Assembly (NCBI GenBank): GCA_020746875.1
Contig: JAGTJL010000003.1
Coordinates: 2,666,001-2,730,000 of the forward strand
DNA: 64,000 nucleotides
DNA from: Rhexocercosporidium sp. MPI-PUGE-AT-0058
Taxonomy: Eukaryota > Ascomycota > Leotiomycetes > Helotiales
Direction of reading: 5' to 3'
Each line of letters opens with the position of its first letter. Positions within the stretch are counted from its first letter, which is position 1. The notes beneath the pieces were generated by a model. That model did no database searches. It worked only from the letters and a program-made list of their open reading frames with translations, and had not been told where the DNA came from. Positions 1,644 to 26,911 of this stretch are shown here, piece after piece. Both the position numbers and the translations under genes were made by a program.

Positions 1644-3616
1644 ATGTCGTCTCCAAACCAATCTGTCAATGCCGACCCGAAGCCTGGTGGCACATCTGCA
1701 CCTCGCCCAACCACCCCAACAACTCCAATCAAGGCCAAAGCCAAGTCTCCAAAGTCATCATATCCAACTTCTCCCATCGTCTACTTTTGTGAGGAAGTTC
1801 GTGTCACCAATGTTCCCGCTCCCTACACCCGTATCACCGTCGGTTACCGGGAGAGCACTTACTTCGAGGATCACTCCGCTGCTGATCCAGAGAGAGAGGA
1901 GCAGAAGCAAACTGAGAAGCTTGAGTAAGTCATCTGAATTTCGCCTGGCCTTTCTTGAGACATGTATACTGATTTTGCGCAGACTAGTCAAGAAGCAAGT
2001 CAAGATCAGCAAGATGGTCCGTGATGTCCAAGTTTTGACCGATCAGGTCGAGAAGATGAAGAAGGCCCACGATCCCACCTTCGCCCACCTTGAGACTCTA
2101 CAAAAGGGACTTACGGACGCGATCGATGCTCACCAATTCAAGATGATGATGATTGGCCAGATTCAATCCTCAGCAAACGGCCCCAACAGCACCCAAAACA
2201 TGTCAGCTGCTGAGACTCTTGAAGCTCGCAAGGCCCGGGCCAAAGTTGCAAAGCTTGAACTGGAAGCCATGGAGAGCGAGATCGAGCTTCTTGAATTCCA
2301 AGTTCTTGTTGATGCTGAGAGAGCTGCCGCAGAGACCGCTTCTGCCCAGTTCAGAGCTGCCGAAATTACCTTGGGCGAGATGTCATCTACTATCGTTGAA
2401 CTTAAGGCTGACTACGAGAAGTCCAACGCCGCATGGATTGCTAAATATGCGATTGAGGAGAGTACCAATGGTGGCGGCGGTGGTGGCCGTCCCGATGATA
2501 CCCTCGGCAAGCTAGAGCGGATGTCCATCGAAAACACAGCTCTGCAGATGAAAGTTGCCGAGCTTTCTAAGAAAATTGAAGCTGTCAAGGCTGCCGCTGA
2601 TAAGAAGATCTGTCTTCTAGAGGAACAGAACAGGGCCCTGACCCAGGCTGCTTCATCCGTCGACTCCGTTGCGTTGAAGGCTTCCGAGGCAAAGGTTCTA
2701 GCCCAGGCTAAGGAACTTGAGTCCCTGAAGGCTTTTATCACCCGTGCTCCGAAGGATATCGATGCCACCTCCGCCCAGAAGATCCGGGCTCTGGAGGGTA
2801 AGATCGAGATCATGAAGCCTATTGTAAGTCTCCCCTTTTTCCTTTCCCTCGCCACGTCCCACAGCCCCAGCCTTGACCCGTACTTAGAATTTGCATTGCG
2901 ACGAATCAATGTTCATGATCAATCTCAGTACATCTGCTAACGCTTTGCAGTACCGCCTAGGCCGTTTCATGCGCTACCGCAACAACTACAGCATCCTTCG
3001 CAAGAAGTACGAGGGCCAGGATGTCAATGTCAACTACGACAAGTACGAAGAGGGTCATGCTGCTTATTTTGCTGGGCATGCTGTTGCTGACTCCACGATG
3101 TACCATGGTGGTAAGTAATTGTTCAAACAAATAAAATTCAAAGGCTAATGTTGCCCAGGTTTCGACGAGGACGATGTTCATGGTAGAGACAAGAAAAACT
3201 TTGAGGACCTCCATCATGGCATCCCCGCCAAGATGGTTTGGGATCTCCGCAACGACTTCAAGATCCTTCCCAAGCTCCTCGACATGGCCTCTAACATGAA
3301 GGTCTACACCGCCAAGAAGGATAAGACCGATGAAGAGTTCGGCACCGCTGAGTTCAAGGAGCTCTTCGAGAAGGTCCTCTACCGCATCAATCCCTCCTAC
3401 CGCACCTTCGCTATCACCTCTGACGAGGAGTTCCGCAAGAACCCAGACCTTGTTGAGGCACTGGACGCTATGTCTTCTATCGCTCGGATCCACTCGTCCA
3501 AGAACTTGCTCGCTCGTCGCAAGGGAATTGAGGACAGCTGGGAACAACCATGGGAGGATGCCTGGATGGATTTCGCTGATGACCTCTATGAGGCTCACCG
3601 TCGCGGAATGTGCTAA
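1644..3616 (+). CDS. Coiled-coil protein, cluster family member A (unknown function)
   Basis: Four exons, 1644-1924, 1983-2823, 2951-3110 and 3159-3616, give 579 aa; all junctions are GT/AG and keep frame. The start is the first ATG of the open frame. The N-terminus is Pro/Thr/Ser/Lys-rich, followed by a long Glu/Lys/Ala-rich coiled coil (about residues 95-370) with a short Gly run. The C-terminal third, from residue 371, carries the features shared with its neighbours: MKPI then YRLG and an Arg-rich stretch (371-384), an H-x-x-x-x-x-G-x-x-x-A-D-S-x-x-Y-H block (410-426), P-x-x-x-V-W-D-L (450-457) and a Glu/Lys-rich helical tail. I do not recognise a named family. It appears intact. A structural or scaffolding role is only a guess from the coiled coil. 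Immediately downstream lies an 80-bp tandem duplication. Confidence 0.85.
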
Positions 3617-3705
3617 AGCCTCGCTTTACCAAATGGTTTGGCATGTCGTACGCCTTGTTCCTGGACCGATTCTTGGTGCTGGATATGATGGATGGGTACT
3701 TCATT

Positions 3706-3866
3706 TGGTGGTTTTCATGATTGTATTTTGAATTCTGGGGTAAGACTCCTCCCGAGCTTCGAGATCCCTCTACAAGTTGATGATTGGTGGTTTGATATGA
3801 TTGTATTTTGGATTCTAGCGTAAGACTCCTCCTGAGCTGCTAGATTCCCCTACAAGTTGATGATTG
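3706..3866. repeat. 80-bp direct tandem duplication in the 3' region of gene A
   Basis: Two adjacent copies, 3706-3785 and 3786-3866, align at an exact 80-bp offset without gaps. For example TTGTATTTTG is at 3721 and 3801, TAAGACTCCTCC at 3741 and 3821, and CTACAAGTTGATGATTG at 3770 and 3850. They differ by scattered substitutions, so the duplication is not recent. It overlaps the probable 3' UTR or terminator of gene A. Confidence 0.9.
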
Positions 3867-4388
3867 TTTTCCTTCTTCATCGTGGTGTCAGACATGAATG
3901 AGAGCTTGGAGAAACTCCATGGATCCTTAAGGTAGATAGATGCAGATGCCCTCATTTGCTTTCTAAAATTGAGAAAACTGTAAATTATTTGTGTGCCCTA
4001 ACTGCCTTTCTCGTGACTTGATCGAATTCCTCTGTCTCCTATGTTTCCCAAATAAAACTAGGGACCTGGAGACGTTGGCTTTGTGGTAGTCTCCTAGATT
4101 ACAAAAAGCGTGCTCTCGTGATTTTTCATTCTGCTTTTGTCCAATGCTCCCAGCCAACTCAGTACCATGGAGATAGACCGAGTACCAAAAAGGAAATCTC
4201 GTTCAGAAAAGACAAGTATAAGCAATGTTCTGAATGAGACATAATGGCAAGGAGTAGTGCCTTGATTTGCATTGCGATTTGGCAGAGACACATCTGAGGT
4301 ACTTTACACTTTTCCTGACTTCTCTCAAGTCCATCCTAGCACCCAGATCACACCAAGCAGCTCCAAAAACTTGTATTCCAGTTCACGA
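3867..4388. other. Intergenic gap between convergent genes A and B
   Basis: The + strand gene A and the - strand gene B point toward each other here. No coding signal was found; the DNA probably holds the two 3' UTRs. Confidence 0.5.
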
Positions 4389-5714
4389 TTATGATCCCCC
4401 CATATTAGCAGGAGTCTTGACGAATGCCCGATGTCTAATAGCAGCAGCCCCAACGATATCCTGCAAGTCCTCACACAACAAATCCGCAACAGCATCCCGC
4501 TCAATATCCTCATCAATTTGAAAACGCCAGCAGAATAGATCTTCTCAATCAGCAACTCGGAATCCTTCAGGAACTTTGCAGCTTCCTCCATAGATGTGGA
4601 ACCCTCGTCGGCGTATCGTTGCATATTGGCATAACCCTTCAGGACGTCCAGGAACTTGCTGAAGTGTTGGTTGTCCAGGGCAACGCTGGGTGGGACATGG
4701 TATTGCTGCTTGTAGTGGGCCCATCGGTCAGTATTGGTCGAGTCGATTTCTTCGAGTTCGTCGGTGAAGTACAGAATACTAGCGTCTGAGAGGGGGTCAG
4801 CGTAATGGGTGGAGCAGTCGCAGGTGATCGAAGCAGGGCTAAGTCAAGTCACAAGTGTTAGTATTACGGTCCCGAATAATATTTCAGAGTAACAAAGTTA
4901 CGTCACGAAATGTCTCTGAAGGGACTCCGTAATGGGATAGAACCTCCAGATCCAAATTGTGGTGACAGGGTTAGGCGACACTTACAACCAGGAGCTCTTT
5001 CCACCTCTACGGACCCAGTCCTCCTCTCTATTGCGCTGGCGGATCCAGAAGCCAACCTTGTAGCAGGGCATCATCTTATTCTTTATTTCCACCAAATCCC
5101 TAGCAGCCTGTTCGTTCTCGTCTCTCAACCGTTCCAGTATGTTGTCCATCCACTTGGCCGCATCGTCGCGTCTTTGAAGTTTCTTCTCAAGGTTTTCGAC
5201 TACCGCAATTTCCAGAGCCTCTTTTGTGATATTCACAGCAGCCGAAGGCGTAGTTGTACACGACTGTCCTATGGGTGGGCTCGAAGAAGCAGCAGGAAGT
5301 AGTTCAATTTCCGCTGCCTGCGATTGGATAATCAATTTATTGGACTCAACAACAGCTGTAAGTTTTGCAATCTGAGCATCCTGGGACTTGATTGTGGCGC
5401 GTGAGACTTTGCCTTGGACTTGTAATCTGGTGGGAGCATGGATTAGTACATGCGCTAAACTAATCCCAGGACAGTGGAAATAGGAAACGTAGTCGCAGAT
5501 CTATTATCCAGTCGGCCTACCACGCGTAGATCACTACAATCCCGCACTATAGACTCACTGAACAACGCTTGCAATCTGATCCGTAGCTTTCCGCTCGAGC
5601 TTGGTGACAATACCCTTCAGGCGGGCATTTTCGTCCTGCACGCGTCGATTAGCAGTCAATCTCCCGCGAAAGTACAAGACGCTTCACTTTGAGAGCGTCT
5701 GTATCTGACGCCAT
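4389..5714 (-). pseudogene. Cluster family member B, frame-disrupted near its 3' end
   Basis: Read on the minus strand: exon 1 5714-5676 (starts MASDTDALK), exon 2 5635-5559, exon 3 5426-4986, exon 4 from 4838. Donors are GT-type, with branch-like GCTAAT, ACTAAT and ACTAAC before the acceptors. The product starts as a coiled coil, then has M-P-C-Y-K-V-G with an Arg-rich stretch (residues 158-170), H-Y-A-D-P-L-S-D-A-S-I-L-Y (197-209) and V-P-P-S-V-A-L (234-240), matching A and C in order and spacing. Around 4535 homology to A jumps to another frame; one missing base explains this, and exon 4 to the shifted stop at 4389 then gives about 335 aa. Read literally the frame runs on to a different stop at 4325. 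Either a recently broken gene or a sequencing error. Confidence 0.65.
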
Positions 5715-6201
5715 ATTTGCGTATCTTCGTGGACTTGAGGAACGCTGTGGTGTTGTTGCACAGAATGGTGATGTTAGGACTGTTCATAGGAGATATTGAC
5801 AAAAACCTGCTTCGGGCTAGTGAAGCGAAAAGACGCCTAACCACAATTGGATGGAGAGAAGGAGGAACCGCCTCCGTACGTTACGAAGTAATGATCAGGA
5901 CGCAAGGAATCAAGTCAGAAAGTCAGAAAGCCAGAAAGAAGAACTGGGTTCCCGAAGGAGCAAGTATTTTTTTCTAGGAGATGCCCCTCGGAAATTGCCA
6001 TATTGAAATCTCAAATGGTCACCCAAAATAGCCACCCACTTCCAAACCCAGAATCATCTCCATACCCTCGACCAGTTGCAAGAGAGTTTCGAATCTCTCG
6101 ACAAGTTTCGTCAGTTATAGAATGAATGATGTTAGAAGTAGAACACCCTTGCTCAGAAGAGGAAAACCCAATGAAAAGAGCAGCAGCGCGGGAATGCCAA
6201 G
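5715..6201. other. Intergenic gap between genes B and C
   Basis: This holds the upstream region of gene B and the 3' end of gene C, both transcribed leftward. No supported gene or clear regulatory signal was seen. Confidence 0.45.
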
Positions 6202-7320
6202 TCACTGGTGCTTGATTCTGTTCACCTTTGCTTCAACAGCATACTTGGCTTCAAGAAGCTTTGTGAGAGCGTCCATCTTCCAGTTCGTAAAGTCAGCACG
6301 GACTGCCTGAAGTTGTGCTTTGGAGTACTTCTCGAAGAAATCGGCAGGCCATGTCATCGCGAATGACGTCGATGTAAAGTTATGGGGATGCCAACGCTTA
6401 ACGGTTCCATACCAAGTAATCAGCTGTAAAAACTGCTTGCAGTCACTAAGATCCCAGACTTGCCGGGGGTGTAAGCCGTAAATGTTGGCATAAGTTGGCA
6501 TATCTACCCTGCGATTGAAAATGGAAGGGTGGTACAAGATTGCATCGGCTAGAGCATCCCCATTGTGCGCAGCTTCGTTTCCAATAAGAACCTTTCCCTT
6601 GTTCCTTTTAGGATAGATAGAATTCTCCATGTACCGATTTCTGATAGCATATCTAATGGCAAGTATTGGATCATTCAGCCGCTCCATTTGACCAAGACGT
6701 TGTATCACAATTTGTTGCACAATTCCGTTATTTTCCAAAGCAGATCTCTCGAGGTTGACACGGAGCTCTGCATTGGAGTTGGCAAGCACCACCAATTGCC
6801 GGAGCAATTTCTCGAACTCTGCCAGAAGGGATCTTCCAGCTCTCGTCAAGCTATCATTGTAGTTTCCTACCAAATGTGAGCGCAACTTGAGACTCTTGCG
6901 GGACCCAAGTAGTTTGCCAGAATGCTTTCCAATAGCCATTCGAGCACTATGAACTTCGGACTCAATTTGTACCATACGGCTTTCTGACATCCCAAGGCGC
7001 CATACTAGTTCCCAGCTAGTGAATTGCTTGACAGACAGCAAGCCGCATGATGGTGGATACGGGTTGAAATTCCCTGTGGCCTTTTTTGGTAGATTGGAGA
7101 AACTGCAGGTGTCTCGAACGACTCTCTTCCTCCAGACTTGATCATGCAGTCGCTTTCGAAGTAGAATGTTGTTCATTATTTCTGATAGTGCAAGCCCCTT
7201 TCGTCGGTGGCCTTCTGATGTGGACGGGGAAAGCTCAAGAACGGCTTGCGAGACGACTGAGTTCACTCGATAGGAGAGACCCATCTGTCCGGATATGTGA
7301 TGCCCAACCTGGAGACCCAT
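6202..7320 (-). CDS. Helical protein, cluster family member C (unknown function)
   Basis: Single uninterrupted frame of 372 aa from the ATG at 7320. The first two-thirds are Leu/Glu/Arg/Lys-rich and probably helical, but less regular than the coiled coils of A and E. The family block is well kept: N-D-P-I-L-A-I-R (216-223) with R-N-R (227-229), A-H-N-G-D-A-L-A-D-A-I-L-Y-H (251-264), L-H-P-R-Q-V-W-D-L (283-291), then a Trp/Phe/Lys-rich tail. It lies 117 bp downstream of HIS6 on the same strand. No catalytic motif or targeting signal was seen. An extra 5' exon cannot be excluded. The name would be 'hypothetical protein'; the family link to A, B, D and E rests on the shared motif order. Confidence 0.7.
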   Translation of the reverse strand: MGLQVGHHISGQMGLSYRVNSVVSQAVLELSPSTSEGHRRKGLALSEIMNNILLRKRLHDQVWRKRVVRDTCSFSNLPKKATGNFNPYPPSCGLLSVKQFTSWELVWRLGMSESRMVQIESEVHSARMAIGKHSGKLLGSRKSLKLRSHLVGNYNDSLTRAGRSLLAEFEKLLRQLVVLANSNAELRVNLERSALENNGIVQQIVIQRLGQMERLNDPILAIRYAIRNRYMENSIYPKRNKGKVLIGNEAAHNGDALADAILYHPSIFNRRVDMPTYANIYGLHPRQVWDLSDCKQFLQLITWYGTVKRWHPHNFTSTSFAMTWPADFFEKYSKAQLQAVRADFTNWKMDALTKLLEAKYAVEAKVNRIKHQ

Positions 7321-7437
7321 GGCGCCTGAAGGATCTAGTCAATTTTGAGCGGAGGTGACGATGTCAACTGGCAACAATATAACGCTGGAATTTGTCATTG
7401 GATGGAAATATTGAACTTGGTGCTCCCTGAACAATCC

Positions 7438-8332
7438 TCAGCGCCTTGGTTGGCTTCGATTCCAAGCAACACACTCGTCGAAAGTAACTCCGGATCCGCC
7501 AAAGATGTCGAGGGCACTCCCAATTGTCAGATCCACACGAGTGCCACTCAGAGTCTTGACATGGTCCAAGTCTTGAATATTCCTTCCTCCTCCAGCATAT
7601 GTGACTGGGATGCTGCACCACTCTGCTAATTTCTGAACCAGTTTCTCGTCGACTCCCTTTTGAAGCCCTTCGTTGTCTGCGGCGTGGATGAGGAACTCGG
7701 AGCAGTATTCTTCAAGTGACTGGATTGAAGCTGAAGAAGGTCAGAACCTTGCAGAGGGAGATATGTAGAAAAAAATTAGTAGATCAATGCATTACCTTCA
7801 TTCACTTCCATATCAGTAATCGTCTGCCACTTGTTCATAGCAACAAACCAAGTGTCGCCTTTCCTTCGACAGCTCAAGTCAATGACTAGCTTCTCCTTGT
7901 CACCTCCAAGAGCAGCAAGAACCAGATCGAGATGTTCCTGAGAAAACTTTCCAGAGGGAAAGAGGAAAGAAGTGATGATTACCTGTTATCACATCAGTAA
8001 AAGGCCTCTCTCAATACAAGAGTACCGCGAACCTTATCCGCACCCCAATCAATCCACTGCTTCGCATTCTTGTCATTTATACCGCCTCCCACCTGCAGAC
8101 CACCTTTCCATACCGCCAGTGCTTCCTTAGCAGCCTCCTCGTTGCCCGGACCCAGCATTATGACATGTGCCCCCTCCAAATCATTGTCCATGTAGAGCTG
8201 TGCAAAGTACCCCGCAGGTAGCTTTGATACATAGTTCGTCTTGAGATCCGTAGATGTCGTAGTCAATGTTCCTCCAACAATTTGCTTCACTTGACCTGAG
8301 TGTAGGTCTATGCAGGGGCGAAATTTTGTCAT
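7438..8332 (-). CDS. HIS6: Phosphoribosylformimino-AICAR-phosphate isomerase (histidine biosynthesis)
   Basis: Isomerises ProFAR to PRFAR, the fourth step of cytosolic histidine synthesis. Exons 8332-8033, 7982-7796 and 7730-7438 give 259 aa, matching the size of yeast His6. The family start [13 protein letters not shown] is clear; an upstream in-frame ATG at 8407 would add 25 residues and is less likely. Visible landmarks are the first catalytic Asp in PCIDLHSG (D9), QVGGGI, the second Asp in VIDLSCRR (D135), the phosphate-loop VTYAGGGR and a C-terminal GSALDIFGG. Donor 1 is GTTCGC, a weak match, but the splice preserves the conserved KVIITSFLF. It is an intact housekeeping gene inside the family cluster and divergent from FAF1. 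Confidence 0.95.
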
Positions 8333-8516
8333 GGCTGTAGAATTTGATGTTCGAACGAAACTAGAATGCTGCTGGATGGAGGGGTTGAAGTTGTTCCGGC
8401 CAAACATCGGGCCGACATTTGTTAGCGTACTGGTTACCTCTAAATCATTTCTTGGGAAAAGTCATTCGCGCAATTTATAAATTCCCTTCACAGTCGAGCC
8501 CTACGAACAGCACAAG
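8333..8516. promoter_or_regulatory. Shared divergent promoter of HIS6 and FAF1
   Basis: Only 184 bp separate the two start codons, which face away from each other, so both promoters and 5' leaders must lie here. If the alternative HIS6 start at 8407 were used, the gap would shrink to about 109 bp. No clear Gcn4-type TGACTCA site was seen. Confidence 0.6.
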
Positions 8517-9432
8517 ATGTCGTCTAAACTAGGCAAACGTAAGAGAATTACGCATAAGCATGAACCAGCACACAGAGCAGAGAGTGAAGGTTCCGGATCC
8601 GAGGAATTGGACGCGCAAGAGATCTTTCGGCGGCATTTCGAAGCTCAGTTTAAGCCTCTGCCCGTTATGAAGAAGGAGATAGTGGTGGAGCGAGTGCCTG
8701 AGGAGGAATCAGGGGAAGATTCAGACTGGGATGGTATATCAGAAGATGAGGAGAATGGCGTACAAGTCGTGGAGCATACAGATGCCCAGTCTCGAATGGC
8801 CGCTATGTCAAAGGAGGAACTCAAGTCCTTCATGGTACTTTGCTCATTGAAAGCGCTACTATATGTGCTAACAACTAGTATAGAGCTCCAAGATCCCGAA
8901 GAATACTCCCACTGTTTCTTTATTGCGAGACAATGTTGGTGGCAAAATCGACGACGAAGACGCCTCGGAGGCAGCAAACCTCAAGAAAGACCTTGCACTC
9001 CAGCGATTGCTCTCCGAATCCCACCTTCTAGAATCATCCAAGAACCCTACACTCAGCGGTAACAATCGTCACAAAGCAACCGACCTCCGATTACAGGCAT
9101 TAGGGTCGAAGGAATCAATACTGAGACAAGAGAAGATGCCAATGTCCCATCGGAAGGGGATCACGTCTAAACAAACTGAGAAAGAGGCAAAGAGAAGATC
9201 CGAAGCGAGAGAGAACGGTATCATTCTGGAGAAGGCGAAAATGGTCAAGAAGAGCAGTGCTGGAAAGAGAGACCGAGGCATTGGTGCGCCTGGTGTGGGA
9301 AGGTTTTCTGGGGGAACTTTGACCTTGAGCAAGAAGGATATCCATGATATTGAAGGACCAAAGCGTACGCCGAGCACCAGAGGACGGGGTGGTGGAAGAG
9401 GTGGTGGATGGGGAAGAGGAAAGCGAGGTTGA
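8517..9432 (+). CDS. FAF1: FAF1-like ribosome biogenesis protein (40S assembly)
   Basis: Two exons, 8517-8834 and 8884-9432, encode 288 aa. The N-terminus is basic then strongly acidic (Glu/Asp/Ser), the middle is Lys/Glu-rich and helical, and the C-terminus has the conserved G-A-P-G-V-G-R-F-x-G-G-T-L-T-L-S block followed by an R-G-G-G-R-G-G-G tail. That pattern fits fungal Faf1 (DUF4602 family), a nucleolar protein needed for pre-rRNA processing and 40S assembly in yeast. The intron begins GTACTT and ends TAG; the downstream frame needs exactly this acceptor. The RGG tail suggests RNA binding. It is divergent from HIS6 and intact. Confidence 0.85.
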
Positions 9433-10443
9433 TACTGATGAGACTTAAGAGACTTAAGAGAGTATTGTGTTGCGGATAGTGGATGGGTGGTGCCGCTTGC
9501 ATAAAAGTACCATGAGCACGTGTGGGACTCGTGAGGGACTGTCATGATATTACTCTGAGTGAAGTGCTCTGCACAGCATGGCTGGGACAGGCTTGAGAGT
9601 CCGAGTGAACCATGGTGGAGATCTGGAAGCCGTGAGAATTATTGAGGACATTGGACCTGTCTTCAAATGCAGTATCTAACGGGGCTGGGTCAGTGGTTCA
9701 CTAGCCTGGCAACTTAAGACTCCCTGCTCTAGAAATTCTCAAAGATAGAGGCAGGGCTTACTCATGGCCTGGAGATATGCCATCATATCGTTTTGATTGT
9801 CTTAACGGACCAAGAATTTGGCATTAATTCAAATCCGGAAGTGGCTCTCCAGCAACGCTGAATGCGAAACCTCTCTCAACTCCTGTTTGCTGCTTATTGG
9901 GTACTTCCTGGGGCTTAGCGACTTACGATTGCTGGTGAACCTTTTGCCATCTTGATCGAAGCCGGTGTAGGTCGTATTACGACGTGTGAGTCTCTTCCTC
10001 TCCTCTTCCTCTCTATGTACTTTGATTGATCTCCATCTGTTATTGTTTGCGCGACATCCTACTGCGGTACTATTTACAGACAATGTTAGCCTCCTAGCTT
10101 TAAAGCGCAGCAGGAAATCTATGTCAAAGGGTCATGTCTTCGAGTAGAGAAGGGAGAAAGTGGGTCGGGAGATACGAGAACGCCTGCACTGTCATGAACC
10201 TTGTGGTCTTGGGAACAAACGAGATACTTCAAGATCAATTCATCAAATGGCGCAGCAGGAGACGATTACATAATTGCATGCCTGAGCTACTTTTCAAGAG
10301 AGCCACTAATGAGGATTTTCTCACAGCCTTCAAACATGCTCACAGCTTCTTTCGAGACATCCTATTTGCGAACCCTAGAAACACTGCTGTACTCACCTAG
10401 TGACAGTATTTATTAGCAACTGTGTGCTTGACTCTTTGATTGG
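9433..10443. other. Intergenic region between FAF1 and relic gene D
   Basis: Only short frames without splice support. It probably holds the FAF1 3' UTR; GACTTAAGA occurs twice in tandem near 9442-9460. Confidence 0.45.
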
Positions 10444-11433
10444 ATGGGACATGTGGTCATAAAAGCAGCTTGGCCTTCCCAGGACATTCGCAACCATTTC
10501 CCCCCCAAAGTACCTAACGCACGAGACTGTCGAATCGAACACCACAATACCGCCAATCCAGAAGCTGTAAGCAGAAGCAATGCTAAGGCCAATCTCCAAC
10601 TCTTCCAACAGAAAATTCATTCTCTCAGCAAAGAGTTGGGTGCCCAAGAGATCGAAATTGCCAAGTCGATGGAACAAATCGAGACCTTGTCGCTGCAAAA
10701 TGCAAGCCTTCGGCAAGTCCAGCAAGATGGCACTGCTGTACAGATTCCTAGTGGTGCCAAATATGAGGACCCTGCACTGCTAGCAGCAGCTAAGACAGAA
10801 ATCGCCAAGCTAGAGAGCATGTTGAAGCGTCAAGAGCCGCTCTTCAACGTCAGAGTTACTGCTCGGCGGGTATTCATTAACAACACGAAGAGGGTGGCCA
10901 CCAAACATAGGATTTGGGGGTACCACTGCGGAATCGAGACCAAGTTAGGAGAATCAACAAGGAAAAGAACGATGCTACACACCGTGGAGATTATGCAGTA
11001 GATTCCGCTCTGCATGGACTTAGCTTTGCCTCAACTGAAGAATTAGCTCACATCTACAAATTTGGCAGCTCATTCACGCTGATTACTCCTCACCATCGCG
11101 ATATGCAAAACGCGTGGGGAAGTCTCATCGCATGCTACATTAATACTTCGTTCAGCTATAACATGGAACATGATAAACAGGCCGAAAAGCTCTATGATCA
11201 AATTACGCACAAGATAGAACAACATGGGCGCCGATAGCTCAATCTCAGCTCGTTCTGAGTCCGAGAAGAACAGAATTTTCTGGACATCCTCACCAGTTAT
11301 GGCAGGTCTGACCACATATTGCGCATTACCCGCGGGGCCATTCGCAACGAGCAAAAGATATTCCGCAGCGAAACCTATCGAAAGGTTCCTGCTTCTCTCG
11401 CGGCGGCAAACTCTTTATGCATGTACGCGGATC
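10444..11433 (+). pseudogene. Cluster family member D, broken by frameshift and stops
   Basis: The frame from ATG 10444 encodes a coiled coil followed by the family block PLFNVRVTARRV. Near 10917-10920, in a run of five G, homology switches frame: the other frame continues R-N-R, then T-H-R-G-D-Y-A-V-D-S-A-L-H-G, and aligns almost without gaps with member E (residues 655-714) and with the A-H-N-G-D block of C. One missing G would explain the switch. That frame ends at a TAG at 11235, meets a further TGA, and then continues open in the same frame to about 11433 with family-like helical sequence. Together these mark a decayed paralogue. The upstream limit of the original gene is uncertain. Confidence 0.65.
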
Positions 11434-12664
11434 GTAAGTTGCCAACCCATCTCATTGCTTAGCTATGATACCTTCCGGCCTGCTCTTCCATTCATCTTTC
11501 AGAAAAGTCAATTTGACGTTTTGGTATTGCTATCTCTCTCCAAGGTGAATGCACAAGCTAACAAATCTGTAGAAGATCCCAAGATCGCCATCGAGGAATT
11601 AAGTTACTGGTAAAGAAGAAAGGATCTTCGCACAGCACAGCAAGAACTTGATTTACTGGCTTTGACACCTTTTGTTGGCCCGGTTTGGCCAACATTGCAG
11701 GGGTCAACATTGCAGGGCGAATGTATACTGAGAAATCACATAGTCTTCTCATGGAGACAGTTGCTTTGTTTTCCAGAATGGTTTTATTCATTTTACAGAC
11801 AATTGGATGATCTCAGCACCACGGGGCTCTTTCCAGATGTTCGATACTGAGGCAATGAAACTTCCTTGCGAGATTCAATGATGACAGTCCATAGATCTTC
11901 CAGGCTTATATTAACCTCTGCCGGTCCTTGTAGGAGTCCCACGCAGATCTTGCGGCTTGTGTTGAGAGACTAAATTTGATTCCCCGACTTTTCAACTCGT
12001 TTGAAGAAGAACTCCCGCACAGGTTGCCGAAAAGTGGAAAAGTTATTTCCCTTCTCCCATGTTTGCCAGTGTAAAATCTTCGCTCCAAGTCCTTCTCTCC
12101 GTCGCGCGGGTCAATTAATTCTAGACGAGGTATCAGGGTCTACTGATCATTATGAAGTTCTGGATGCTGTCCTAGAAGGATCTATACACCTTTCAAGAAT
12201 GAGAATGAAAATAGCCCAGCTCAGATGCCACTTATATCTTTCTCAAATGCCGTATACGACCCGGAAAGCGATTAGATCAATAGACATCTAACGGCCGTAA
12301 GACATCAACAATCATTTCAATAATACGAACAGAGCCACCAACTCGATTATTGCCAACAACACCCATGATAGCCTCGAAAGACGTTCACTCGGGTGTCAAC
12401 AATGACCCACTTTGTTAACCGAAGTCTAGCACAGAGCTAGCGCCACGCTAGATCGGGCCCGCAGCTCAAAGTCAACACAGACGACGCGTCTTCTACTCTT
12501 ATCACCATTTCTACATCAGCGGCCTCACCTCGTTACCAGGTTGTGATACAAAGAGATTGTCTCGTCTGTGCCGCCAGAGCATTGGACGGGAAGCCCGCCT
12601 TCCAACTCTTGATTTTCCAGATTGGTGACGCTCGACTTCAACGGCAGCGATTGGTTTCAGCACT
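11434..12664. other. Region between relic D and gene E
   Basis: A GTAAGT donor-like site at 11434 follows the last family-like segment of D. Beyond it only short frames occur, possibly more decayed family sequence. The last few hundred bases should contain the promoter of gene E. Nothing else can be supported. Confidence 0.4.
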
Positions 12665-15357
12665 ATGGCCGACTTATGCACTCCAGCTAGGAGTGCCAAT
12701 GAGCAGTCCATGGGTGGTTTGACGACTCCTCGACCGCGAACAATGTTTCAGTGCCGCACAGAGAGTTCAAGAGTGAGTCTCAACTATCAACTTTCCAGAC
12801 ACAACACTAACACCAAGTTGAAGTCACAGCGTGGTAACTCGACTGCTTCTCCACTATCACTGCGGACAGGAGGCGAACTTGCTGCAGCCGTCGTTGGAGA
12901 CGTCCATGTGAACGCTTACGGTGTGCCACCAAAGACCTTTCTTCTAAGCAATGGAAATGCAGGCAACTTAGGCTTTGAGTCGGATGAAGAGTTTAAAACT
13001 GAGCATGACTCTGTAAAGCTCGCTATTCAATTCAAGAAGGTACCTGGCGACGCGTCTCCTGGTCTTGAAATCCACTGACTGGGTAGAAATCCCCCAATTC
13101 ATGCCCCCGCATCGGCACCATGGGTGACCAGAGCAGCGCACAAGACAGTAACTCTAACACCAGCACTCTCGTCTGTCTACCAGACCATCGTTTACCCTCC
13201 TCATTCGCCACAAGATCAAGGCAATCGAGTTCTGCATCGAGCATACAGAGTTTCCGGACGACTCCCGAGAACACATCTGAGATTGAGCTCATGTCATCAA
13301 TCGAGGCAGAGAAGAAATGCCATGGAGATACGGCCTTAAAGCTACAAGACGTGTGTTTTGAGCTGGATAGCACAAAAAAAAGCCTCCAATTCAGCTTGAA
13401 GTACTCTTCCCAGCTCGAGGAGACGAATATTACCCTCTCTAATGAAGTCGATTCCTTGAAAAAGAAGCTCAAAGCCGCTGAAGCAGAATATGATGCAGAT
13501 AAAGATATGCTTCTTAATAGGATTGTGACTTTACGGGACAGTCTCGAGAATGCTACAATCTCTTTCGGCGAAAAGCAGGAGGCTGCTGCAGAGAAAATAG
13601 CTACCCCAAAATTCCAGCTCCAAGAGATCATCGAAGCCCGAGATTTGGCAACCGCAGAATCATCAGAGGTCGCCGAGGACAGTATGTTTCTCCAAGGAAG
13701 CATTGACGATCTTCGCATGCAATTGAGGGAAGCCGAAGATGCTAATACAAGAACATCCACGCGCAAACGTCGGTTGGAGGAGCTGAACGAACGCCTAGCT
13801 GCTAAGATTGAGGCTGTCCAGAATCAGCCTGAGCAAACCGCGGGAGCTCGGGACTCTGCCCAGCAGAAGGTTTCCTCATTGCAAGATAGTTTACTGGTCA
13901 CTTACTCAACAGACTTGGAGAAGTTGTTGGGTCAGCTTAGGACAATGGTAACTGCATCTGACCCTTCTCTTAGCACGTCCGAAAGAAACCATCTGCAAGA
14001 TCATATAAAATATTTGAGGGAAGCTCGCGGTATCGAGGTTCAGCTCGTAGCACACCTCTTCCAAAAGTGTAAAGATCTGACCGAGCAAGTCACCAAACTC
14101 CAGACCGAGAACAGCGAAGCTATAGAGTCTCGAAATGCAACAAAAATACAGATGTCTGAAATCATGAAGGAAAAGTACACGGCAGTCAAAGACAACGCAG
14201 TGCTTGCTGCTCGGCTTACTGAAGTCATAAACTTCCAGGACTTTGCTCAGAAGCAGATCTTACGCTTTCAGCAAGACAAGGTCGCCAATCAATTGTCTTG
14301 TCAAGCACCCACAAAGGCTAGTGACATTGAGACCACCTTCCCAAATAACCAGGTCATCCATGACAACTCGAAGGAAGAGAGCATGAACGATAATGCAGCC
14401 TTGCTGTCGGAGATCGACAGTCTGAAGAATTTGTTGGAGGAAGAAAAACTTGCACATAAGTCTTACCAGACAAAGCTAACTTGCTCGGAGGCAAGCTTGC
14501 GCAACGTCAAGAAATTGCTAGAGCAAGAGAATTCTGCACACAAGATCAGCACGGAAAAGCCCGAGAAGCTTCTTCAACGTGATACCGTAGTGCAAAGTTC
14601 GATAACAGCCAAGGTCATCGATCTCCAAGCCTCTCTAGAGAAGGAACAGTCAGCGCATCTGGTCTGCAAGATAAATCTTACCCGGGCGGCAGATGAGCTA
14701 CAGCTCTCGGTGGCCGCAAATGAGACCAGCCTTGGCAAGATTTCTCAGTTGAAAAGCCGGATCGAATTGCATAAACCACTGTTCCAGGTCGGCATGCTTG
14801 CCAGGCAGTTGTGGTGGGAGCTTGCGAGAGATGGGAGGTATCCTGGGGGCGAGTGGTACACATACAGAAACCGTGGGGTCAAGAATTCTGCACTCGTCGA
14901 CAGCGCAGAAGCTAAGATGAAGCAACCAGATCGAGCTGCCGACGCTTCTTTGTTCCTTCTAGGAGCTTTGACGCATCGCCAAGACCATAACATGTTCATG
15001 AGCATCTATGACCATCCGGTCCCCTCTGGTATTCGCGAGGCCACCAATCCGGTACTCCTTGTCAAAGTCACAAATATGAAGGCGGAGCTGCGAGAACGTC
15101 GTCGATTGAGTGCATATGCGTATGAAGTCAATTTTGCTAACTCTGAGATCTTCTATAATCTCGAAAGCGAGTGTAAGATGGCATTCAACCGAATGATGGG
15201 AGAATCGGGTCTAAGCATGTCCGCCGTCTGTCCCGAGCGACGTGATGTAGAGGATGCCTTCGATAGAAATCCAGTCATGAGAGCCAACCTGAGAATAATG
15301 GAGCAAATATTCAACAAGGAGATGAAGAAGTACCGCAACGTTACCAAGAACCAGTAA
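12665..15357 (+). CDS. Large coiled-coil protein, cluster family member E (unknown function)
   Basis: Proposed exons 12665-12772, 12830-13039 and 13132-15357 give 847 aa; intron 1 has an ACTAACAC branch site, and intron 2 removes the stop at 13076. A shorter model starting at ATG 13120 would also be open. A Ser/Thr-rich N-terminus leads into a very long coiled coil (about 150-650), with repeated Glu-Lys-Ala-His type heptads near 540-590. The family block follows: H-K-P-L-F-Q-V-G (653-660), A-R-Q-L-W-W, R-N-R-G (685-688), P-D-R-A-A-D-A-S-L-F (705-714) and a conserved helical tail. This is the longest member and appears intact. Role unknown; the architecture suits a scaffold or filament-associated protein, which is inference only. 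Confidence 0.8.
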
Positions 15358-25137: not shown

Positions 25138-26911
25138 ATGGGTGAGACATCGAATGTTGCTGCACAGGTGTGCTGGAACTGCAAGAACGGGAAGAGAAAG
25201 TGCTCCAAGGATTTGCCTGCTTGTGCGAGATGTGCCAAGTGCGTCGTCATGATCGGTCGATAGCGAGATGTTTTGCTGACGACCAGTTCAGGTTGCTGTT
25301 GAAATGCGATTACGAGTACAGTGCTTCGGAAATGAATCCTCCAAAGGCAATTCAATCACCAGCATCATCCGTTGAAGGCTCAACTCTTCCTCAACTCCAG
25401 CCCACAGCGAAATTGATGTATGCCTTGTCGGATGGCTCTCCGAGATCCATGAAATTAGAAGCATCGATCCCAATTCAGGTTCTGAACATCATCATTTCCA
25501 ACGGAGATGGTGTCCCCTCTGTGACTTCCACTTACTTCCGGACCATTGATGTCTGGTTGCCTGTCATTGATGCAGATACTTGCGTCAGAAGACTCGAGAC
25601 AATCACCCAAGACAACAACATAGAACTCTCCTGTCTACTCCTCTCCATGTTTTTGGTCACTCGACCTCCGGGAAACAACAGCGGTATAAGAGAAATGCAG
25701 ACTCCACTCTACTTTGAGACAAAGACGCTCTACTCATTTCTCGTGTCTTCAGGAAGATCTGCCATTGAAGTCATCCAAGCAGGTCTTCTCATTTCACTTT
25801 ATGAGGTCGGACATGGTATGACAGAGGCTGCCCAGATCACACTTACCATCTGTTCAAGGATGGCAATGAAAATGAAAGCCGTGCAATATCGAAACTCTTC
25901 GCGTAACATCCAGAATACAGAATTTGGGAGGTTATGGTGGGGAATTGTCACCCTGGATAGGTAGGTAGTGTGGCCATGTACCTTCTCCTCTAACACTTGT
26001 CAGATACTTGAACCAAGATCTCTCGCCAGATGAGATCCATCTTCTAGTTGGAAGTTGGAGTGATGGTGTACCAGCAATGGAACTACCAATTGATGAAGAG
26101 GCACAATCTGGACTTCCTCCTCCAATCTCCATGCGAACAACCTCTGGGATATCAGCATCGCATCAGCCAACAACGAGACTAGGCCCTTTTTGCAGAGCGG
26201 CTGAGGCAGGTCATCTTCTCGGTCAAGTGCTCGACCTCGTCGCACAAACGTCATACACTCGGGAAATGGACTTCGGAAAGGCGCGAGCGCTAGATCATGC
26301 GATGCAGTCATTCGCAATGGTTCTTGTGCAGCAAGCTATAAATGGATGGGAGGAATGCTGCGCTGCGATTGGTCTTTGCTTAAGGTTCGTCACCTCGATC
26401 TGCTAGAAGACTTTGCTAATCCATCAGTGCTATGGTTCTACTCCACGAAAACATTTGGAACTTGGTAAATGACGCACCTGGGCAAGACACGCGCAAAGAA
26501 GCTGCTGGAATGGCACTTGAATCTGCAATCAGAATGACAATAGATATTTCTCGTCGGTTTCATATGGACCTAGCATACATCGACCTTCCTGCACTTCCAC
26601 TTCCAGCTACGTATGCTGTATATCGATCAACACTGTTATACATACAATTCTCGGGAGATGCATTCCAGAGCCCTGAATGGTTATCAAATATGTACAGTCT
26701 CAAGAGTACCCTCGGACATTTTGGTAAAAGATGGAACGTCGGCAGTAAGTTCACCACTCCCCCTTTGAATACTCAATTAACGAAAGCAGAACATTACCTC
26801 GACCTGATCGATATCGCCATATCAAATGAAGCACATCTGCGAGCTCGAGCCGGTGGAAGAGGCTCTTCCGAAGGCCAGACGCACATCATGAAAATGGAAC
26901 TCAGCGACTGA
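25138..26911 (+). CDS. Zn2Cys6 transcription factor (second regulator)
   Basis: Five exons, 25138-25238, 25292-25960, 26004-26384, 26428-26744 and 26790-26911, encode 529 aa. The zinc cluster lies at the extreme N-terminus (C12, C15, C22, C29, C32, C39); its last Cys is on exon 2, so intron 1 splits the domain. The body has fungal-specific regulator features such as F-G-R-L-W-W-G-I-V-T-L-D-R. There is no obvious coiled-coil dimer linker. The last intron has no in-frame stop, so its retention would still give an open frame. The stop codon lies 10 bp from the stop of the convergent acyl-CoA dehydrogenase gene, so their transcripts almost certainly overlap. Confidence 0.88.

Follow-up and report, generated by a model that had tools for sequence, protein, structure and literature searches.

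Diverged and broken copies of a probable fungal protein family clustered around HIS6 and FAF1 in Rhexocercosporidium sp.

Five neighbouring genes, here A to E, lie on both strands of a 64,000-nucleotide stretch of the genome of Rhexocercosporidium sp. MPI-PUGE-AT-0058, a root fungus living as an endophyte (the window: bases 2,666,001–2,730,000 of contig C23, in an assembly of 62.7 Mb), and they raise the question of whether they belong to one family and, if so, why one locus should hold such an uneven set of its versions. The original prediction, made from the letters of the window, described them as a five-member cluster of an undescribed coiled-coil family. A single family is retained, with B as a probable member; the count of five, however, was too narrow, as the cluster comprises 12 copies (B counted) and one relic over ~146 kb of the contig, of which the window holds part, and the best-conserved copy, H, lies outside it. 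Copies F, G, H and Y are in the left flank and J, K and I in the right flank. Judged by the sequence comparisons below, A to E appear to be diverged paralogues of one fungal family, B only probably so.

Blocks shared by the window genes

The copies have a C-terminal region in common, hereafter the head, in which three blocks can be aligned. In the clearest copies, the consensus is P-x3-[VI]-G-x3-R-x-R for block 1 (H reads PLLQVGVDIRLRNLEAARE), G-N-x-A-A-H-x2-N-x3-D-A-x-[LM]-[FY] for block 2 and [FY]-x2-[LI]-Y-x3-P for block 3. J, K and Y were examined in the head region only. The window genes and their blocks, in window positions, are:

1644–3616, plus strand: gene A, splice model with exons 1644–1924, 1983–2823, 2951–3110 and 3159–3616; 579 amino acids
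2794–2986, plus strand: block 1 of A, ...EIMKP / YRLGRFMRYRNN, interrupted by intron 2824–2950
3053–3106, plus strand: block 2 of A, GHAAYFAGHAVADSTMYH
3197–3247, plus strand: block 3 of A, NFEDLHHGIPAKMVWDL
4328–5714, minus strand: gene B, probable member, partial splice model with exons 5714–5676, 5635–5559, 5426–4986 and 4838 downward
4766–4822, minus strand: block 2 of B, CDCSTHYADPLSDASILYF
5030–5071 and 4670–4717, minus strand: blocks 1 and 3 of B
6205–7320, minus strand: gene C, one open frame of 372 amino acids; block 1 at 6622–6672, block 2 at 6529–6582, block 3 at 6448–6495
10444–11234, plus strand: gene D, degraded, two frames and then stops; block 1 at 10834–10869, block 2 at 10965–11018
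13120–15357, plus strand: gene E, one open frame of 745 amino acids; block 1 at 14773–14808, block 2 at 14926–14964

Residues 1–577 of the 579 in the A model are identical to the annotated protein BKA65DRAFT_577896 of the same isolate, the ends differing. The frame of B shifts near 4540, indicating that the gene is broken or mis-sequenced; its blocks match in order and spacing in the block alignment. The frame change in D coincides with a possible 41-base GT-AG intron (10870–10910, plus strand). Both this and a possible 40-base intron in B (5636–5675, minus strand) are unusually short.

The shared blocks were found where the original prediction had located them except in gene E, where PDRAADASLFLLG at 14926–14964 is a better fit to block 2 (its third block) than the proposed ALVDSAEAKM; this block 2 is without the N and the H. 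Other details required revision. R-N-R is not one common motif, being block 1 itself in C and lying farther downstream in D and E, and a 50-residue pairing of D with E, situated within the coiled-coil part, is not significant alone (BLASTP, 1.6). The fourth block claimed for A, B and C is present, although not confined to them: its region, [FY]-x2-[LI]-[YH]-x3-P, occurs additionally in F, G, H, I and K, while the P is missing in Botrytis relatives.

The block 2 aspartate is kept in all 12 copies (ten by block alignment, with G and Y read from their open reading frames, ORFs). As the asparagine and histidine are altered in A, E and I, this constancy of the aspartate alone is easier to reconcile with a binding surface than with a catalytic site common to all. 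Upstream of the head, a long, helical, coiled-coil-like N-terminal part was read by eye in H, A and E.

Tests of membership

If A to E were unrelated coiled-coil proteins with blocks alike by chance, weak pairwise scores would be unsurprising, and most of them are indeed weak; in a ten-sequence BLASTP set, A matches C at an E value of 1.6e-4 and gene E at 0.002. In the controlled test, a profile free of window sequences (H, its orthologues and the flank members I, J and K) was searched against 5728 ORFs over 184 kb. Among the 2059 window ORFs, C ranks first (E value 2.6e-4), the second piece of D second (0.16), gene E third (0.71) and the first piece of D fourth (1.1), with the next ORF at 5.5; among all 5728, the relic (1.4) and then F (1.8) come after the first piece of D. 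Of the reversed ORFs listed, the best returned an E value of 7.6 (4.8 bits). In three shuffled sets, the top score was 8.1 bits, against 8.2 for gene E and 7.6 for the first piece of D, so that the best decoy is level with the single score of the former and above that of the latter. Nevertheless, the joint occupation of ranks 1–4 by C, D, E and D is significant although gene E and the first D piece singly are not, and none of 500 shuffles of its own sequence reached the score of C, of either piece of D or of gene E.

A and B are not reached in this way. The tested exons of A rank 37 and 13 (29/500 and 7/500 shuffles reaching the score), and the pieces of B rank 204 and 21 (67/500 and 20/500). 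For A, profile–profile comparison using hhalign was informative: a five-sequence A profile aligned to the window-free profile with P 5e-4 (probability 31%) and, once C and F had been added to the latter, with P 1.2e-7 (94%), while the reversed control gave P 0.4 and five column shuffles 0.14–0.91. By the same method, gene E returned P 3.6e-4 (37%), C P 3.1e-6 (88%) and B P 0.014 (3%), or, after addition of C and F, 0.003 (11%). In the opposite direction, a profile combining A with its four orthologues placed C first after A among 2060 window ORFs (E value 0.014), followed by a non-family ORF (0.74), gene E (1.1) and B (3.1). An earlier profile of H, I and K (5728 ORFs) picked up G, J and Y, followed by C (0.0042), gene E (0.06), a non-family ORF (1.3) and D (1.5).

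Thus, as had been expected of a family profile, the other members are recovered: C, D and E by the window-free profile and A via hhalign, with B only probable. Between the joint ranks and the profile–profile result for A, chance resemblance is extremely unlikely, although B might still owe its likeness to chance.

The locus and its relatives

The flank copies F, G, H, I, J, K and Y were recovered by searches of the whole genome and the flanks. With ten protein queries, for which A, B and E were entered by their C-terminal parts, all genome matches with an E value below 0.2 fall within C23 2,641,784–2,785,223, and three weaker ones lie away from the locus (0.29, 0.74 and 2.8). A Botrytis member used as query gave six matches in this genome at E values up to 10, all at this locus. 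As far as found, the family thus appears to form a single cluster here, interspersed with unrelated genes. C as whole-genome query found F (E value 1e-5), and F is closest to C (BLASTP in the ten-sequence set, 3e-11). Further copies and the non-members between A and E are:

C23 2664780–2665730, minus strand: F, the sixth copy, 270–1220 bases left of the window
C23 2643797–2645440, minus strand: H (annotated BKA65DRAFT_534090), the clearest and conserved copy, ~21 kb left of the window
C23 2787748–2787897, minus strand: short profile match to block 1 past copy I, either a relic or an exon
Window 7510–8407, minus strand: HIS6, with PF00977 matches in two pieces and approximate ends
Window 8517–9432, plus strand: FAF1/FSAF1 (PF15375), splice model with exons 8517–8834 and 8884–9432

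H has as its immediate neighbour a gene with glycosyltransferase family 28 domains (C23 2645675–2648770, minus strand). Elsewhere in the window, the A profile weakly matches a short ORF at 25802–25999 (minus strand) through a block-3-like stretch (E value ~1), probably by chance.

The protein collection was searched with A, E and H. H has twelve relatives besides itself (1776 candidates), nine of them 70–82% identical and three, from Botrytis, 36–40% identical; A has four besides itself (1597 candidates). For gene E, no relative was returned at an E value of 10 or less among 3435 candidates, its own record included. BKA65DRAFT_534090, RSE6_11572, VTL71DRAFT_8636 and Bfra_005449, which belong to the same family and carry the clearest form of the head, are listed as hypothetical or uncharacterised, a listing that attaches no function. 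H and A are found on equally long contigs in three of the four genomes that yielded both, namely Rhexocercosporidium, Rhynchosporium secalis (RSE6_11572 and RSE6_11581) and Cadophora sp. DSE1049; Cadophora sp. M221 has them on two separate short contigs. Equally long contigs and close tags suggest conserved linkage of H and A, which is not equal to a synteny map. Relatives of A and H persist in other genera, a pattern suggestive of turnover around members that are stable.

The predicted mixture of open and broken copies around HIS6 and FAF1/FSAF1 was confirmed. The frames of A, C, E and H are long and open, and those of F (317 codons) and I (296 codons) are open as far as examined; frame changes occur in B and G, Y has two stops, D has stops after its second block, and J and K have one stop each within the aligned stretch. 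Base composition bears no sign of repeat-induced mutation. This mixture could mean that H and A alone are functional, all the others, including C, E and F, being duplicates in decay that have stayed open by chance or because they are young. The disrupted frames of B, D, G, Y, J and K are in keeping with this, as is the C-terminal part of gene E, which is unmatched in the protein collection. However, gene E and C remain open over 745 and 372 codons with codon bias in frame (in all 12 pieces tested, the assigned frame had the best codon score, by a narrow margin for H), and their divergence from H would speak against recent duplication. On balance, we regard wholesale decay as unlikely.

Possible roles and origin of the copies

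No named family was predicted for these proteins, and this was borne out in the libraries searched. Pfam returned nothing above cut-off for A, C, E, F, G, H, I, J, K or the database relatives (the scans took in A, C and E, six database relatives, ten items including F, G, I, J and K, and 13 heads, leaving out B, D and Y), and NCBIfam, PADLOC and the PDB gave weak matches only. The head of H is predicted to be all-helical (pLDDT 76, pTM 0.67).

The nearest comparison is with DUF4145 (PF13643) of the HEPN superfamily, which has the local motif G-N-x-A-A-H in common with the family head, and the head might be a highly diverged RNA-binding or RNase domain of this type. DUF4145 matched 3 of 13 heads with a best E value of 0.11, but the best printed score, 12.9 bits, is below the gathering cut-off of 23.1. 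The superfamily motif is Rx4-6H, which some HEPN families do without (PMC3710099). This motif, and with it the arginine, is absent from all 13 H-type proteins, although present in K; no clear agreement of helix order with HEPN emerged, and three HEPN matches to the helical head model fall within the helical background. Such an affinity is, in our view, quite improbable.

Fungal allorecognition gene families include NLR, HET and others. Like the cluster described here, they form local, diverging and partly broken gene sets, and the locus might accordingly be one of self/non-self recognition or conflict, at which fast-diverging heads would encounter partners that vary, setting off incompatibility or defence between strains. 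The local clustering of copies, the low identity of neighbours, the broken copies among open ones and the lack of relatives of gene E would all suit this idea. In contrast to those families, no Pfam match to NACHT/NB-ARC, HET or similar domains was obtained in the members and relatives scanned, and relatives of H and A are spread over several genera. We consider a conflict locus distinctly unlikely. A bolder version, in which the cluster would be a single-locus recognition system of a new kind, marking self or countering parasites through an array of coiled-coil sensors with GNxAAH heads around a conserved founder, those heads being diversifying, distant kin of HEPN RNA-binding domains, is highly improbable.

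It is established that the copies share a head, that all those found are clustered, that H and A are conserved from genus to genus and that broken copies stand beside open ones. The explanation that we prefer, and hold with about even confidence, is that these are coiled-coil adaptors around a conserved founder, multiplied by local duplication and subject to divergence and decay. The N-terminal helical parts would form oligomers, the all-helical head would bind a partner, and H may retain an ancestral intracellular adaptor role, while duplicates would diverge and often be lost. The net charge of H, +8 over the first 80 residues and −27 over the last 80, suggests the nucleus as its location, with a basic N terminus and a strongly acidic C terminus.

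Several points weigh against this proposal of adaptors around a founder. Oligomer formation is suggested by reading the sequence by eye, fold comparison gives no match that would identify the head, and the model of the A head failed (pLDDT 39), although its helix order looks similar to that of H. Membership is weak for B, which is probable, and neither gene E nor the first piece of D beats every shuffled decoy singly. Lastly, when parts of A, B and E served as whole-genome queries, each retrieved only itself, so that equally diverged copies elsewhere could be missed.

The copies define a protein family without a model in the libraries searched, of which a conserved member reaches Botrytis, and their open, diverged and broken versions form a natural series at one locus. 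This series lets one ask why a single locus keeps yielding new versions of one intracellular protein.
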